From: Thermocrinis minervae
GTDB taxonomy: Bacteria; Aquificota; Aquificia; Aquificales; Aquificaceae
Direction: 5' to 3'
Assembly: GCF_900142435.1 (NCBI RefSeq)
Contig: NZ_LT670846.1
Location: 186,001-250,000 of the forward strand
DNA length: 64,000 bases
Shown: positions 30,944 through 41,723 of the stretch, one piece after another
Layout: the number at the start of each line of letters is the position of its first letter
Position numbering within the stretch: position 1 is the first letter of the stretch
The notes under the pieces: generated by a model
What the model saw: only the letters and a program-made list of their open reading frames with translations
What the model was told of the DNA's origin: nothing
The model's database searches: none
Program-made: the position numbers and the translations under genes

Positions 30944-31612
30944 ATGGGTAAGTTGTACGTTATAGCCACTCCTATAGGTAACTTGGGTGATATTACCTAC
31001 AGAGCTATTGAAATCTTAAAAAAAGTAAACTTTATAGCATGCGAGGATACAAGAAGGACTATGATACTTTTGAACCACTATGGGATCAAAGACAAAAAGC
31101 TTCTCTCCTACTACGAGCCTAAAGAAAGCCTGCAGGTGCCAAAGATTCTAAAGCTCCTTGAAAAGGAAGACGTAGCCCTTGTGTCTGACGCGGGCATGCC
31201 TTCCATATCTGATCCTGGCTACAAGCTCATAAAACAGTGTATACAGAAGAATATACCCGTTGAGGTCATACCCGGGCCAAGCGCCGTGACTACAGCACTA
31301 GTCGGCTCTGGACTACCCACAGACAGGTTCCTGTTTGTAGGATTCTTACCCAAGAAGGGTCTTGAAGGCTACCTTGAAGAGTTAAAAACATGCACGGATA
31401 CAACCATAATAGCCTTTGAATCTCCCAACAGAATCCTCAAGACTCTTGAGGTCATGAAAAAAGTGTTTCCACCTCAAACGGAAACGTGCGTAGCCAGAGA
31501 GCTTACAAAGATCCACGAGGAATATATAAGGGGATCACTAGAGGATGTATACAATCAGTTAAAAGAAAGGGGAGAGATCAAGGGAGAGATTGTCCTCCTC
31601 TGGAGACTGTAA
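30944..31612 (+). CDS. rsmI: 16S rRNA 2'-O-ribose C1402 methyltransferase RsmI
   Basis: RsmI methylates the ribose of C1402 in the 16S rRNA decoding centre. The 222-aa protein is of the tetrapyrrole-methylase fold and starts with the family signature LYVIATPIGNLGDITYRAIE (residues 3-22). It shows CEDTRRT, LVSDAGMPSISDPGY, GPSAVTTALVGSGLPTD and ARELTKIHEE in order. It lies between the USP gene and the reverse gyrase gene, ending 13 bp before the latter's likely ATG. Confidence 0.95.
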   Translation: MGKLYVIATPIGNLGDITYRAIEILKKVNFIACEDTRRTMILLNHYGIKDKKLLSYYEPKESLQVPKILKLLEKEDVALVSDAGMPSISDPGYKLIKQCIQKNIPVEVIPGPSAVTTALVGSGLPTDRFLFVGFLPKKGLEGYLEELKTCTDTTIIAFESPNRILKTLEVMKKVFPPQTETCVARELTKIHEEYIRGSLEDVYNQLKERGEIKGEIVLLWRL

Positions 31613-31625
31613 AATATACCAAGTT

Positions 31626-34600
31626 ATGATACCAAGCTACTTCTTAAGACTGTGTCCTAACTGCGGTGGCGATATAAGCTCTGAAAGGTTGTATGCTGGT
31701 CTTCCGTGTGAGAAGTGCATGCCAGAGATAAGGCAGGACGTATGTTCTTACGAAGACCTCAAGGGGTTTATGGAAAAGATATGCAAGATGGAGGAGGAAC
31801 TAAGCGAGTGGGAAGCCTTCTTCCAAAAGAGGATCGGCTCTAAACCTTGGAGCCTCCAACTTGCATGGGCAAAGAGGGTACTTCTGGGCAGATCCTTTGC
31901 TCTGCTCGCACCAACGGGCGTAGGAAAAACCTCCTTCGGCACATCCATGGCCGTCTTCTTAGCCAAGAAGGGTAAAAGATCTTACATAATAGTGCCTACC
32001 AAATTACTCCTGAAGCAGATCCATAACAAACTTCTCAGCTTAGGACTGGAGGAAGAAGAACTTTTGTACTTCGGTGATGAGACCGAGAAAGAAAAGGAGA
32101 AGAAAAGACAGCTTCTACAAGAGGGAAGGTTTAAGGTCCTTTTAACTACTTCCATGTTCCTCTATAGGAATTACCAAGCTATACCCAGAGGCTTTTCCTT
32201 TGTCTTTGTGGACGACGTAGATTCCTTCTTAAAAACAGCAAAGAATATAGACAAAGCCTTATACCTCCTAGGTTTTGACGAGGAGGACATTCAAAAAGCC
32301 TTAGAGCTTATAAAGGAAAAATCAAGCCACAACAGGGATTACGAGAAGATAAAGTCCCTATCCGAGGAAGTAAAGAAGTTATCTCTGAAGGCAAAGGGTG
32401 TTCTTGTGGTGTCTTCTGCCACTTCCAACCCAAGGTCAAACAGGGTAAAGCTCTTTAGAGAACTTTTAGGCTTTGAAGTAGGAACACCTACCTTCTACCT
32501 TAGAAATGTAGTAGACGCTTACGTACATGAAAGGCCTACCATTGAGACTCTAGTAAACTGGATTAGGAAGCTAGGCAAAGGGGGCTTGGTGTTTGTTTCC
32601 TCCGACATGGGCAAAGAACAAGTAGAAAAACTGAAGGAAGCTTTAAGTCACCATGGTATTAACTCCCTAACGTACGAAGAGCTGACAGAAGAGAATCTAA
32701 AGCTTTACGAAGAGGGTAAGGTAGAGGTACTCATAGGCATAGCCTCCTACAGAAACCCGCTAGCCCGTGGCTTCGATATGCCCCATGTAGTCAGGTATGC
32801 CATCTTTTACGGAGTTCCCAAGATGAGCATATCCCTAAAGCTAGAGGAAAACCTCTCACACCTCCTTTGGGCTTTAACCTCCATAAGGTCGCTAATAGTA
32901 AAGCAGCTTCCCCATTATGGGCCAACGCTAGAAAGATGGATAGAAAGACTAAGAAGGTACCAGTACTTGTCAGAGGAATTCCTCGAAGAAAAACAGGATC
33001 TAAAAGAAAAGGTTGATAACTTGAAGCTTGAAATATCCAAATTCCTGAACTCTGAAGATGTTATAGCCATACTGGAGAGCAGCAATGAAGTAACCTTAAG
33101 AAGATCGGAAGAAGGATACTATCTTGTGGTTTCGGACGTTACAGGCTATCTCCAGGCAAGCGGTAGAACATCAAGGATGTACGCCGGTGGTATAAGCAAA
33201 GGTCTTTCTCTTGTATTAGTCGATGATGTAAGAGCTCTAAACCACCTGCAAAAAAGGGTAAGATGGTTCAACGAAGATATAAAGCTTACACCCATAGAAG
33301 AAATAGACATAGGGAAAATAGTAGAGGAGATAGACAGAGATAGGGAAAAGATAAAGAATATATTGGCTGGTAAGGAAAAGCCTCAGTCTAAAGACATTCT
33401 AAAACCCATCCTCATAGTCGTGGAGTCACCCAACAAAGCTAGAACTATAGCCAACTTCTTCGGTAAGCCTGTAAGAAGAAGGGTAGGAGATCACGAACTT
33501 CTCGAAACCTCTGTAGAAGACAGATACATAATGATAACCGCATCCTTGGGACACATAACAGACCTAAACAAAGAAAGAGACTTTCACGGTGTTTATGTAA
33601 GCGAGGACAGCATTGTACCCTACTACGAAGTTATAGAGGGAAAGGAAGGTATAGTAGAGAGTCTCAGGCTTATGGCTATGGAATGTTCTGAGGTGCTTGT
33701 AGCCACAGACCCGGACACAGAGGGTGAGAAGATAGGCTGGGATATAAGGCTTATCCTCAGACCTTATGTAAAAAACATAAAACGTATGGAGTTCCACGAA
33801 GTTACCAAAAAGGCTATCTTAAAGGGGATAAAAGAACCAAGGGACTTTAACGAAAACCTAGTAAAAGCTCAGATAGTAAGAAGGATAGCTGACAGATGGG
33901 TAGGTTTTGAGTTCTCTCAAGAGCTTTGGAGAGCCTTTGGCAAAAACTGGCTTTCTGCAGGAAGAGTTCAGACGCCTGTGCTTGGTTGGATAATAAAGAG
34001 AGAGCAAGAATACCGCCAAAAGATATACAAAGTAATAATAAACCTGGACCAGGATGATAAAAGGCTAAGGATTGAATTCACCTTTGACAACAAGCAGGAA
34101 GCCAAAGAGTTCTTTGATAACTTAGACAGCATTAGAATAGAAAAAATAGAGGAAGCTGAAGAGTACATTCACCCACCGCCACCTTACAGAACGGACACAC
34201 TTTTAAAGGACGCAAGCGACAAGTTCAAATTCTCACTTCAAAAGACCATGGACCTTGCTCAAACCCTCTTTGAACTCGGCTTTATAACTTACCACCGGAC
34301 AGACTCGGTCAGAGTTTCGGACTATGGCATAGCTATAGCCAGGGAGTTCATAGAAGAAAACTTTGGCAAAGAATACTTCCATCCTAGAGTTTGGGGAGAA
34401 GGTGGAGCCCACGAATGTATAAGGCCCACAAAGAACATAGAACCAGAAGAGCTAAGATCTTTAGTACTCAGCGGGCAGGTAGAAGGTCTCAATAAAGATC
34501 ATCTAGCTATCTACACCCTTGTGTTTAAACGGTTTATGGCAAGCCAGATGAAGCCAGCTAAGGTAAGAGTAATAAAAACTCTAATAAAAGCTTTAGACAA

Positions 34601-35072
34601 AGAGCTGACTGTAAGTCTAAGAACTCATATACTTGAAGAAGGCTTTAACAATATACTTCCCATAGAACTCAACCCATCCTACGAGGATGTCACCCTGAGT
34701 ACCGAAGGAAGAAAATACTTAAAAGCATCACCGAGGGCATATCTGTACACCTACGGCGAGCTAGTTATGGAGATGAAAGAAAAGGGTATAGGTAGACCTT
34801 CCACCTATGCCACGATAGTAGAAAAGCTGATAGAAAGGGGGTACGTCATAGAGAAAAAGGGCTTCCTTATCCCCACAAGGCTTGGGAAGGAGATATACCA
34901 ATACCTGAGCTCAAAAGACCAGATAAAGGGATTCGTCTCCGAGGAGTTTACAAAAGAGTTAGAAAAGATGATGGACATGGTGGAGGATGGAAAAGAAAAC
35001 TACATAAGCATACTAAAAAAGCTATACAGGGATATAATAATCTTGGAAAAAGAGTTGGAGGTAGGAAGATGA
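31626..35072 (+). CDS. rgy: Reverse gyrase
   Basis: Reverse gyrase introduces positive supercoils and is the hallmark enzyme of hyperthermophiles. The 1148-aa protein has an N-terminal zinc finger (C10, C13, C28, C31), then the SF2 helicase module with Walker A APTGVGKT (about 95-102) and FVDDVDS as the DEAD-like box. A latch region follows, then the topoisomerase IA module with the TOPRIM VESPNKA (Glu near 600) and the catalytic Tyr889 in ITYHRTDS. The second zinc finger often found ahead of the topoisomerase TOPRIM is not visible. I choose the ATG at 31626 over an in-frame start at 31590 inside rsmI, since the zinc finger then begins naturally; there is no Shine-Dalgarno and TAAAAT lies 10 nt upstream. 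Confidence 0.96.
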   Translation: MIPSYFLRLCPNCGGDISSERLYAGLPCEKCMPEIRQDVCSYEDLKGFMEKICKMEEELSEWEAFFQKRIGSKPWSLQLAWAKRVLLGRSFALLAPTGVGKTSFGTSMAVFLAKKGKRSYIIVPTKLLLKQIHNKLLSLGLEEEELLYFGDETEKEKEKKRQLLQEGRFKVLLTTSMFLYRNYQAIPRGFSFVFVDDVDSFLKTAKNIDKALYLLGFDEEDIQKALELIKEKSSHNRDYEKIKSLSEEVKKLSLKAKGVLVVSSATSNPRSNRVKLFRELLGFEVGTPTFYLRNVVDAYVHERPTIETLVNWIRKLGKGGLVFVSSDMGKEQVEKLKEALSHHGINSLTYEELTEENLKLYEEGKVEVLIGIASYRNPLARGFDMPHVVRYAIFYGVPKMSISLKLEENLSHLLWALTSIRSLIVKQLPHYGPTLERWIERLRRYQYLSEEFLEEKQDLKEKVDNLKLEISKFLNSEDVIAILESSNEVTLRRSEEGYYLVVSDVTGYLQASGRTSRMYAGGISKGLSLVLVDDVRALNHLQKRVRWFNEDIKLTPIEEIDIGKIVEEIDRDREKIKNILAGKEKPQSKDILKPILIVVESPNKARTIANFFGKPVRRRVGDHELLETSVEDRYIMITASLGHITDLNKERDFHGVYVSEDSIVPYYEVIEGKEGIVESLRLMAMECSEVLVATDPDTEGEKIGWDIRLILRPYVKNIKRMEFHEVTKKAILKGIKEPRDFNENLVKAQIVRRIADRWVGFEFSQELWRAFGKNWLSAGRVQTPVLGWIIKREQEYRQKIYKVIINLDQDDKRLRIEFTFDNKQEAKEFFDNLDSIRIEKIEEAEEYIHPPPPYRTDTLLKDASDKFKFSLQKTMDLAQTLFELGFITYHRTDSVRVSDYGIAIAREFIEENFGKEYFHPRVWGEGGAHECIRPTKNIEPEELRSLVLSGQVEGLNKDHLAIYTLVFKRFMASQMKPAKVRVIKTLIKALDKELTVSLRTHILEEGFNNILPIELNPSYEDVTLSTEGRKYLKASPRAYLYTYGELVMEMKEKGIGRPSTYATIVEKLIERGYVIEKKGFLIPTRLGKEIYQYLSSKDQIKGFVSEEFTKELEKMMDMVEDGKENYISILKKLYRDIIILEKELEVGR

Positions 35073-39111: not shown

Positions 39112-39561
39112 TCAGACGTTTGTATCGATCAAAAATAGAGGTTGCCCATACTCTACAGTTTCTCCATTCTCTACCAGTATCTTAACTACCCTCCCCGCTA
39201 CGTCGCTCTCTATCTCGTTCATCACCTTTAGGGCTTCTATTATACACAGCACCTGTCCTGGAGAAACTATGTCACCCACTTCTACAAAAGGTGGAGCGCC
39301 AGGAGATGGTGATCTATAAAAGGTACCCACCAAAGGACTTCTTATAACATGCAGGTTTTTCTCCTCTGTGGGAACAGAAGGAACCATCACCTCCAACTGC
39401 TTATGTGTTTCCGGTTTAGCAGGCATACTAAACGCCTGAGGTTCTTCAACCTTATAGGTTTCTATTGTTATCTCAAAACCTTCCGCCTTTAGGGATAACA
39501 GCCTTATGTTGCTGTTCTTTACCTCCCTTATCAGCTCCTTTATAAGCTCCTTATCCATCAC
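39112..39561 (-). CDS. accB: Biotin carboxyl carrier protein of acetyl-CoA carboxylase
   Basis: AccB carries biotin between the carboxylase and carboxyltransferase reactions in fatty-acid synthesis. The 149-aa protein has an N-terminal helix, a Pro/Glu-rich linker and the biotinyl domain from about residue 70. The target lysine is in EALKVMNEIES; most family members have EAMKM there, so Met to Leu and Met to Val are slight deviations. The start overlaps the efp stop by 4 bp, and efp-accB is a known pairing. accC is not in the window. Confidence 0.93.
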   Translation of the reverse strand: MMDKELIKELIREVKNSNIRLLSLKAEGFEITIETYKVEEPQAFSMPAKPETHKQLEVMVPSVPTEEKNLHVIRSPLVGTFYRSPSPGAPPFVEVGDIVSPGQVLCIIEALKVMNEIESDVAGRVVKILVENGETVEYGQPLFLIDTNV

Positions 39562-40127
39562 TTTACCCTTTCCACATAGCTACCAGTCCTTGTGTCCACA
39601 CGTACTATATCTCCCTCGTTCACGAAGAAGGGTACCTGTATAACTGCACCTGTTTCAAGCTTAGCAGGTTTACTACCGCCTGCTGCTGTATCACCTTTAA
39701 AAGCAGGTTCTGTTTCTACCACCTTAAGATCTACATGTTTAGGAAGCTCTATACCCACAGGTTGGCCTTTGTAGAGGAACACTACAACCGTCATCCCTTC
39801 CTTCAGAAACTTGGTCTCTTCCTTTATGTTTTCATAAGGTACAGCTATCATATCGTAGGTGGTTTGGCTTATAAAGTAGTAGTTGTCACCGTCGTTGTAT
39901 GAATACTCTGCAAACACCTGTTCAAAGTCTGCGAGTTCTATGGAGTCAGAGGATTTGTAGGTAAGTTCTATGGTGTTTCCCGTCTGCATGTTTTTGGCCT
40001 TTATCCTTACAAAGGCCTGCCCCTTACCCGGCTTAACGTGTTCGTAGTCTAAGACTCTGTACGGTTGCCCGTTATGTTCAATAAACATATCTCTTTGAAT
40101 GCTGTTTATGTCGATTTTCACACCCAT
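39558..40127 (-). CDS. efp: Translation elongation factor P
   Basis: EF-P relieves ribosome stalling at polyproline stretches. The 189-aa protein has three beta-barrel domains: the KOW-like N domain with HVKPGKGQAFVR, whose tip Lys (about residue 34) is the usual modification site, then the OB-fold domains with LPKHVDLKV and the C-terminal DTRTGSYVERV. The ATG is 6 nt downstream of TAAAAT, predicting a leaderless message. It leads the efp-accB-osmC-thyX operon, next to the long non-coding region. Confidence 0.95.
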   Translation of the reverse strand: MGVKIDINSIQRDMFIEHNGQPYRVLDYEHVKPGKGQAFVRIKAKNMQTGNTIELTYKSSDSIELADFEQVFAEYSYNDGDNYYFISQTTYDMIAVPYENIKEETKFLKEGMTVVVFLYKGQPVGIELPKHVDLKVVETEPAFKGDTAAGGSKPAKLETGAVIQVPFFVNEGDIVRVDTRTGSYVERVK

Positions 40128-40133
40128 GTTTTT

Positions 40134-40139
40134 ATTTTA
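40134..40139 (-). promoter_or_regulatory. -10 element of efp
   Basis: TAAAAT on the minus strand ends 6 nt before the efp ATG, so the predicted transcript begins at or next to the start codon. No good -35 hexamer is seen 16-18 bp upstream. Confidence 0.45.
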
Positions 40140-40250
40140 CCATGCATCCCCTATCTTCTTTCTCTTACTTACCTTAATTAATACTTATAGTGTTTTAGAA
40201 GAAGATGATGATAGGCCTTGAGTCCTGTAAACTCAACTTTTTAACAGATC

Positions 40251-40387
40251 CTTGAAAATCAATCGTTTGGTAATTTGAATTCCACACTCCATATCTAAAG
40301 TCTTTGATTCTCAAGGCTTTTCTGAAATAAAAATTGTACAGTAATTTCCTAGAGTTATGAAACATACTGGAAGTTTTTCACATCTTG
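40251..40387 (+). repeat. Stem-loop repeat, copy 1
   Basis: CTTGAAAATCAA (40251-40262) pairs with TTGATTCTCAAG (40304-40315), 11 of 12 positions, around a 41-nt loop. Similarity to copy 2 continues downstream to the TTTTTCACATC at 40374-40384. Strand is arbitrary. Confidence 0.6.
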
Positions 40388-40510
40388 TTGTGTAACTCCT
40401 ATAAATACGTGAAATTTTTAAATGTACTTTCCTAATGTTATAGTGCAGAATGTGGAAAACTCATATGATCCTTGTGTATCAAAGCTTAGACCCTGTGAAA
40501 ATCGTATGGT

Positions 40511-40650
40511 CCTAGAAAATCAACGCTTTGGCGATTTTATTTTCACATCCTGTATCCGAAGCTCTTGATTTTCTAAGTTTTTATGAAGTGAAAATTGTTC
40601 AACAAATTCCGAAACTTATAAAACATTCACAGGTTTAGGGTGTTTTCACA
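40511..40650 (+). repeat. Stem-loop repeat, copy 2
   Basis: CCTAGAAAATCAA (40511-40523) pairs with TTGATTTTCTAAG (40565-40577), 12 of 13 positions, around a loop of the same 41-nt length as copy 1. Loops are about 60 percent identical, mostly differing by transitions. One stem position changed T-A to A-T on both arms. The copies are spaced by about 260 bp. Confidence 0.6.
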
Positions 40651-40654
40651 TTTG

Positions 40655-40740
40655 AGTATGTGGAAAGTGTGAAAAGTATGTGGAAAAAGTATGTTTATAA
40701 GTTACCGATATTACGATATTTTCTACGAGTATGTGGAAAT
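40655..40740 (-). repeat. Tandem DnaA-box-like motifs
   Basis: AGTATGTGGAAA occurs three times (40655-40666, 40675-40686, 40728-40739). Read on the minus strand each gives a TTTCCACA core. A further TGTGAAAAG (40668-40676) sits directly between the first two. Four boxes in the same orientation, three of them abutting at 9-11 bp, resemble an origin's DnaA assembly site. Confidence 0.48.
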
Positions 40741-40780
40741 TGTTCAAGTTATTGAGAGTAAAGTTTTATACGTTTTTACA

Positions 40781-40927
40781 TTATGTTAACATGGTGTATT
40801 TTTAGTGCCTTATTTACAGACATTATAAAATGAGGCGTGAGAATTATGATATATATCATAAATTGAACCCGTTGCTATTAAGATTACAGATAAGTATGTG
40901 AAAAAGTTAGAAGATTATGTTAACATG
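40781..40927. repeat. Repeated 13-mer TTATGTTAACATG
   Basis: TTATGTTAACATG occurs at 40781-40793 and 40915-40927. Each copy contains the perfect palindrome ATGTTAACAT. The pair flanks the 18-bp palindrome and is 35-180 bp beyond the start of the ABC transporter's end; a protein-binding role is plausible but unassigned. Confidence 0.4.
40844..40861. repeat. 18-bp perfect AT palindrome
   Basis: TTATGATATATATCATAA is a perfect palindrome in the most A+T-rich part of the region. It could be a dimeric operator or part of an unwinding element. Confidence 0.4.
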
Positions 40928-40961
40928 TCGAAGCTATACTTACAGCCTCTGCTATGTCTTT

Positions 40962-41723
40962 TTAGGAACTTAGCTTTATCAATTCAGCTCCGAGCCCATT
41001 CTTGATAAACTCTTTGACGAAGGGTACGCTGGAGTAAAGAATCTCCTCTTTAGTACCTATCTGTACTACTCTTCCCGACTGCAGAACCATTATCCTGTCA
41101 GATATGGAAAAGGCGCTTACAAGGTCGTGAGTAACCACTATGGAGGTTATTCCCGTTTTTTCTCTTAAGGAGAGAATAAGCTGGTCTATGAGCCTGCTCG
41201 TTATTGGATCAAGGCCGCTTGTCGGTTCGTCGTATATTATAAGTCTTGGATCTGTGGCTATGGCTCTTGCTATTCCTACCCTCTTCCTCATCCCTCCAGA
41301 CAGCTCCGAAGGGTACAGGTCAAGTACCTCTTCTCCTAAACCTACAAGCTTTAGCTTCTCAATGGCGAGGTTCCTCAGTTCATCTTGGTTCCTGTCTGTC
41401 TTTTCAAGGTAATAGAAAACTACGTTCTCCCATACTTTTAAGCTGTCGAAGAGAGCAGCACCCTGAAAGACATAGCCTATCTGCTTTCTTAGTTCATCCA
41501 GCTCCACTTTTTTGAGCGAAAGAAGGTCTTTCCCCAGCACCTCTACCTTTCCAGAGGTGGGTTGCCACAATCCTACTATACATTTGGTTATGGAGGTCTT
41601 ACCGCTTCCACTACCGCCTACTATGGTGAATATTTCACCTTCTTTCACCTCGAAGGATATATCTTGAAGTATTATCCTCCCGTTTATGACCTTGGTTAAG
41701 TTCTCTACTTTTACCGCGTACAT
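40962..41723 (-). CDS. ABC transporter ATP-binding protein, MlaF-like
   Basis: This 253-aa ATPase resembles MlaF, which powers phospholipid transport between membranes in diderm bacteria. It has Walker A GGSGSGKTS near residues 37-45, the Q-loop YVFQGAALFDSL, the signature LSGGMRKRV near 142-150, and Walker B LIIYDEPTSGLDP. The FQGAALFDSLKVWENV segment and short C-terminal tail fit the MlaF/Ttg2A subfamily. The permease (MlaE) and MCE (MlaD) partners are not adjacent. Its start directly abuts the stop of the ThiS-like gene (0-bp gap). Confidence 0.9.
   Translation of the reverse strand: MYAVKVENLTKVINGRIILQDISFEVKEGEIFTIVGGSGSGKTSITKCIVGLWQPTSGKVEVLGKDLLSLKKVELDELRKQIGYVFQGAALFDSLKVWENVVFYYLEKTDRNQDELRNLAIEKLKLVGLGEEVLDLYPSELSGGMRKRVGIARAIATDPRLIIYDEPTSGLDPITSRLIDQLILSLREKTGITSIVVTHDLVSAFSISDRIMVLQSGRVVQIGTKEEILYSSVPFVKEFIKNGLGAELIKLSS

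Follow-up and report, generated by a model that had tools for sequence, protein, structure and literature searches.

The 64-kb window analysed here, which is the whole stretch from base 186001 to base 250000 of a single source contig of 1,367,821 bp, contains one long gap between genes, and the question was what this gap does. No open reading frame of at least 60 amino acids with a start codon was present in 40128-40961. On the left the gap is bounded by efp (39558-40127, minus strand), with the gene start facing the gap, and on the right by an ABC-transporter ATPase gene (40962-41723, minus strand), with the stop codon facing the gap. The initial annotation had singled it out as the only long non-coding gap of the window, and this held true: it was the sole long one without a gene or known RNA, and the other gaps of at least 120 bp were mostly RNA genes or open frame. 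Two of them are RNA genes (the tmRNA gene at 2520-2866 and a tRNA gene) and another measures 139 bp; the stretches at 62.2-64.0 kb belong to a single SbcC-like open frame that the end of the window truncates. The tmRNA gene was matched by Rfam at 164.9 bits and was not reported by ARAGORN.

The gap is very probably where replication of this Aquificaceae chromosome begins, an oriC of the DnaA type. The identification was made because of homology, box density, and skew. A box cluster above background, a skew switch, a single copy kept in relatives, and an intact DnaA were all found. The element as a whole is:

40128..40961 (genome 226128-226961), unstranded: candidate oriC, whole element, 834 bp, 31% GC

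Twelve DnaA boxes were counted in the element by the core TYCACA, as follows.

40278..40286, plus strand: DnaA box AATTCCACA, motif scan
40374..40382, plus strand: DnaA box TTTTTCACA, exact TTWTNCACA match
40451..40459, minus strand: DnaA box TTTTCCACA, exact TTWTNCACA match
40494..40502, minus strand: DnaA box ATTTTCACA, motif scan
40539..40547, plus strand: DnaA box ATTTTCACA, motif scan
40623..40631, plus strand: weak DnaA box core ACATTCACA, motif scan
40642..40650, plus strand: DnaA box GTTTTCACA, motif scan
40659..40667, minus strand: DnaA box CTTTCCACA, motif scan, cluster member
40668..40676, minus strand: DnaA box CTTTTCACA, motif scan, cluster member
40679..40687, minus strand: DnaA box TTTTCCACA, exact TTWTNCACA match, cluster member
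40732..40740, minus strand: DnaA box ATTTCCACA, motif scan, cluster member
40897..40905, minus strand: DnaA box TTTTTCACA, exact TTWTNCACA match

The four exact TTWTNCACA matches in the gap (40374, 40451, 40679, and 40897) and the same-orientation cluster at 40659, 40668, 40679, and 40732 were thus as initially described. Over the full 64-kb window, TTWTNCACA was observed 8 times versus 4.69 expected. The density of TTYCACA was 13.2/kb in the element versus 0.34/kb across 800 kb sampled from this genome (~38-fold), and the element held 11 copies compared to 5 in the densest other 834-bp stretch sampled. Three copies of TGTGRAA separated by gaps of no more than 30 bp occurred at one place in the entire 1.37-Mb genome, which was the element, and the reversed-pattern control gave 0 matches in the whole genome. 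The second-densest box stretch in the sample, at 1.30 Mb, was rejected as a chance occurrence in coding sequence.

Skew was measured on 40 samples plus the window, together ~60% of the chromosome and 732 genes, using third-codon-position GC3 and TA3 corrected for gene orientation on a 5-kb grid. Each of the two switched sign at 225 kb, with the element located at 226.1-227.0 kb. The check named in the initial annotation, which a skew minimum elsewhere would have failed, was thus passed. When 20-kb blocks were permuted, 0 of 500 permutations reached the observed gain for GC3 or TA3 (p < 0.002). Bootstrapping over blocks placed the origin at a median of 225 kb, with a 10-90% range of 220-240 kb and a wide 2.5-97.5% range of 145-245 kb, and the best terminus by skew was at 0.45 of the circle. 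Raw skew from 20 evenly spaced 20-kb samples showed only a broad minimum at ~157-290 kb, and raw cumulative GC skew inside the window was discarded, since gene orientation dominates it. Gene orientation in this genome was unbiased, with 47% of coding bases leading, and the earlier objection that the flanking genes keep their direction therefore carries little weight. In G002, G008, G010, and G016 (400 kb sampled each), orientation-corrected skew gave no significant peak at their elements; the maxima of G008, G010, and G016 were away from the elements, and that of G002 was within 8 kb, with p = 0.35 for GC. This result, like the wide outer bootstrap range, the distant dnaA, and the imperfect trio-like repeat with its weak box, speaks against the origin reading. 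The weak skew in these relatives fits the alternating purine-rich and purine-poor stretches of Aquificae and Thermotogae genomes (PMC4070872), on account of which ordinary skew plots can mislead. For the own genome, skew at third positions was effective once corrected for orientation.

Box clusters in gaps are also found at datA- and DARS-like loci, and the element could in principle be such a DnaA-titration or reactivation site, with the true origin elsewhere. We consider this very improbable: the element sits at the skew switch, no second box cluster like it exists in the genome, and next to its AT-rich arm there is a trio-like repeat, a feature for which a titration site has no need.

An origin was also sought in relatives. 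The 822-bp query matched long gaps in G005 and G008, with local alignment scores of 112 and 70 versus shuffled means of ~33 and ~29 respectively. A sequence-only profile (R1), built from five copies of a 108-bp unit with G014 and G016 not in the model, found one strong place each in G000, G005, G008, G014, and G016, and clustered weak matches in G002, G010, and G018. The independent triple-box pattern refound the R1 places in G002, G010, G016, and G018 and added G001, G004, G011, and G015, with weak R1 matches adjoining those in G001 and G004. Weak R1 matches without boxes (e.g. L073 and L090) were left out. Altogether, one comparable gap per genome was present in 12 Aquificaceae genomes, this one and 11 others, from 8 genera. 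The origin reading of the initial annotation was supported by these single counterparts in the 11 other genomes, four of which have dnaA close by, in addition to the skew switch and the lack of any known RNA in the gap. When motifs were sought in the 12 elements without a seed, the DnaA box came back as TTTYCACAT. Convergent box arrays, with the left part pointing right and the right part pointing left, were seen in 12 of 12 elements (per-genome p values 0.0005 to 0.1). The genes flanking the element differed in most genera; their names in relatives were read from translations, not from a family search.

G005 and G014: the same kinase-like gene on one side
G008: permease and rRNA methyltransferase
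G010 and G018: bioB and a comM-like gene
G002: rimP on one side
G004 and G015: NtrC-type regulator

Different flanking genes in different genera are what a mobile piece would leave, and the element might be what remains of the origin of a plasmid, phage, or other replicon that had integrated. This is less probable still, given that nothing similar to the element was found in either the plasmid or the phage record collection, that each of the 12 genomes had exactly one element, that no mobility genes adjoined it, and that it lies at the skew switch. The least probable reading, a non-coding RNA gene or regulatory leader of efp, can draw on the efp promoter, which must fall in the left end of the gap, and on the fact that conserved non-coding DNA can be RNA, and is set against the absence of any Rfam family match in 40128-40961, conserved parts that are short box-like motifs on both strands, and the separation of efp from the element in relatives, which have efp away from their elements and for which reason the element is not an efp leader. 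Two sub-threshold Rfam matches in the gap (a plastid UTR and a snoRNA) were chance. A transcript with RNA function over the boxes had been named as a finding that would overturn the origin, and no known RNA lies there according to Rfam.

For the preferred reading, a replication origin, the location of dnaA deserves attention. A position of dnaA or dnaN next to the origin is common in bacteria and not required, and it is absent in E. coli. In this genome dnaA was 479 kb from the element, and neither gene is beside it. Four relatives have dnaA nearer to the element: G014 (~3 kb), G016 (16 kb), G018 (35 kb), and G002 (42 kb). In G004, G008, and G010 it was far away. The earlier objection that dnaA is not adjacent has little weight, because the two lie apart in several genera. 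Of the seven complete genomes, three had dnaA within 42 kb, which by a hand estimate ignoring relatedness has a chance of ~5% each and ~0.005 jointly. Our reading is that dnaA and the origin were once close and were later parted by rearrangement.

The own genome encodes a DnaA with the box-binding domain IV, as indicated by PF00308 and PF08299 matches and the KKDHTT signature; the domain carries KKDHTTAIYAVKKVE. Among the DnaA C-termini compared (L210-L239), the residues after DHTT were A/V-x-Y in seven genomes with mostly TTTYCACA boxes, and V-x-H in G002, whose boxes are TTWTCCACA. The exception was G004, which has canonical boxes yet Y, and a tie between the DnaA residue and the box sequence is for this reason only a suggestion.

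The left end of the element has the following features.

40160..40214, unstranded: inferred site of unwinding, the AT-rich arm on the left up to and including the trio-like repeat, placed by the position of the repeat here and in relatives
40197..40214, plus strand: DnaA-trio-like repeat AGAAGAAGATGATGATAG, then GCC, imperfect frame
40226..40234, minus strand: weak box-like site TGTAAACTC, ~11 bp from the trio-like repeat, read from sequence

The repeat AGAAGAAGATGATGATAG is periodic, yet the first TAG does not fall in its frame. The spacing between TGTAAACTC and the repeat matches that of the published BUS (PMC8287927), although TGTAAACTC is not a strong box match. In a BUS, three or more DnaA-trios with a central A lie no further than ~16 bp from a box; here the weak box TGTAAACTC lies 11 bp off and the frame is imperfect, and the arrangement is clear in several relatives. 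A clearer form of the trio, AATAATAATAG plus G/C, was found at the equivalent end in G002, G008, G010, and G018. RATRATAG plus G/C was present at the left end in 6 of 12 elements with constant orientation, and a trio-like repeat in 9 of 12 when ATTAATAG was allowed or the G/C rule dropped. In G002, G008, G010, G015, and G018, the sequence taken 3' to 5' with the G/C tract as starting point is GAT-AAT-AAT and so on, in agreement with the DnaA-trio description (PMC8287927).

The initial annotation had put the unwinding element on the other side, next to an 18-bp perfect palindrome. The palindrome was confirmed:

40844..40861, unstranded: palindrome TTATGATATATATCATAA, right-hand side of the element

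The unwinding element, however, was probably misplaced, with the trio-like repeat sitting at the left end; a location at ~40160-40214 appears more likely than one beside the palindrome. The form TATGATN4ATCATA occurred 0 times in 800 kb of the own genome, was present in the G005 element (L030 1806-1821), and had a loose form in G014.

As predicted from these features, DnaA would bind the ~12 boxes in two facing arrays (left mostly plus, right minus) and build oligomers. An ATP-DnaA filament would then extend from the left array onto the trio-like repeat at 40197-40214 and open the AT-rich left end. Helicases would be loaded there, and two forks would depart in opposite directions. DnaA binding, unwinding site, and loading polarity are all put forward here as properties that the arrangement of the element suggests.

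In addition to the left-end trio-like repeat, the initial annotation had overlooked two direct copies of a 117-bp unit and a second recurrent motif. The two copies are diverged and 72% identical.

40249..40365, plus strand: 117-bp unit, copy 1, R1 profile match 2.7e-24
40510..40626, plus strand: 117-bp unit, copy 2, R1 profile match 7.7e-20

When boxes were masked and motif discovery was repeated on the 12 elements, the next informative motif was GGAATATCAATAACTT-like, with a log-likelihood of 1177 versus 429-521 in mono-nucleotide shuffles; A- or T-rich low-complexity tracts outscored it. After refinement this second motif was cGnaaTaTCAAtaACTTAtG, with 3-9 copies per element. In a comparison covering five genomes it was enriched 16- to 55-fold relative to the genome background, the motif having been trained on the same elements. 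Among the 60 copies scoring at least 10, about half were followed 5-17 bp downstream by a box on the same strand; for 17 copies, a box on the opposite strand came 1-8 bp downstream. The copies in this element, together with other recurrent motifs, were:

40340..40359, plus strand: second motif AGTAATTTCCTAGAGTTATG, score 13
40601..40620, plus strand: weak copy of the second motif AACAAATTCCGAAACTTATA, score 9
40696..40715, minus strand: second motif CGTAATATCGGTAACTTATA, score 18
40251..40262, plus strand: CTTGAAAATCAA, also in the G002, G010, G014, and G018 elements
40304..40315, minus strand: CTTGAGAATCAA, inverted partner of CTTGAAAATCAA
40782..40791, plus strand: TATGTTAACA, recurring near the right end, also in the G005 and G016 elements
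40916..40925, plus strand: TATGTTAACA, copy 2

The background frequency of CTTGAAAATCAA in the own genome was 2 per 1600 strand-kb. TATRTTAACA, which is rare across the genomes as a whole, occurred twice here (40782-40791 and 40916-40925); the G016 element also has two copies, and that of G005 has one.

The second motif, which lies next to many boxes, probably helps to position DnaA or binds an accessory protein, and the module of box plus second motif is possibly the new part of this oriC. It is a concrete part open to test. A broader proposal, which we hold with more doubt than belief, is that Aquificaceae origins are composite, combining the DnaA box with the 20-bp cGnaaTaTCAAtaACTTAtG, to which either another origin protein specific to the lineage or DnaA itself in a different mode would bind, and that the origin moves between neighbourhoods as a self-contained block with dnaA left behind.

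The element was compared with known systems. No mapped Aquificales origin was found in the literature searched, and earlier predictions in databases such as DoriC are possible. Like E. coli oriC (PMC10316083), the element has about a dozen boxes, two opposite arrays, putative unwinding DNA at one end, and no adjacent dnaA. It differs in the box sequence (TTTYCACA here versus TTA[T/A]NCACA), in length (834 bp versus ~250 bp), and in having a second recurrent motif between the boxes and a trio-like repeat. Similar to the BUS of Bacillus subtilis and Helicobacter pylori, several relatives have a box or G/C tract followed by GAT-AAT-AAT-AAT, 3' to 5' (PMC8287927), whereas the own repeat AGAAGAAGATGATGATAG does not keep frame with the first TAG and has a weak box beside it. 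The order of parts in Thermotoga maritima oriC is TTATT, eTrio, DnaA-trio, G/C-rich, and box (PMC10316083). The present element resembles it in belonging to a hyperthermophile and in having AT-rich DNA, trinucleotide repeats, a G/C tract, and boxes in order, but it has another box sequence, no exact eTrio (three TAG), and a longer array. Within the family, the G002 element has an equal layout, box arrays, the second motif, and AATAATAATAGGCGGC at one end; unlike the present element, its boxes are TTTTCCACA and TTATCCACA, its dnaA is 42 kb away, and its neighbours are different. The handling of single-stranded DNA by DnaA has a model in the Aquifex aeolicus protein. With a native origin located and comparable elements in 12 Aquificaceae, the trio and two-array unwinding models become testable with the cognate protein at high temperature.

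Similar clusters were observed in the sister family. In G022 (L246), TTTTTCCACA-CC-TATTATTATTATTATTA was present, with a dense TTATCCACA cluster directly adjoining CC-TATTATTATTATTATTA. Single dense TTATCCACA clusters were found in G020, G024, G026, and G028 (L247, L249, L250, and G028:C2:803.7-804.0 kb). By their sequence, these clusters are likely to be the origins of those genomes too.

Elsewhere in the window, a frame of 1160 amino acids at 31590-35072, named from its translation only, reads as reverse gyrase with helicase and topoisomerase parts. Reverse gyrase is a mark of hyperthermophiles.
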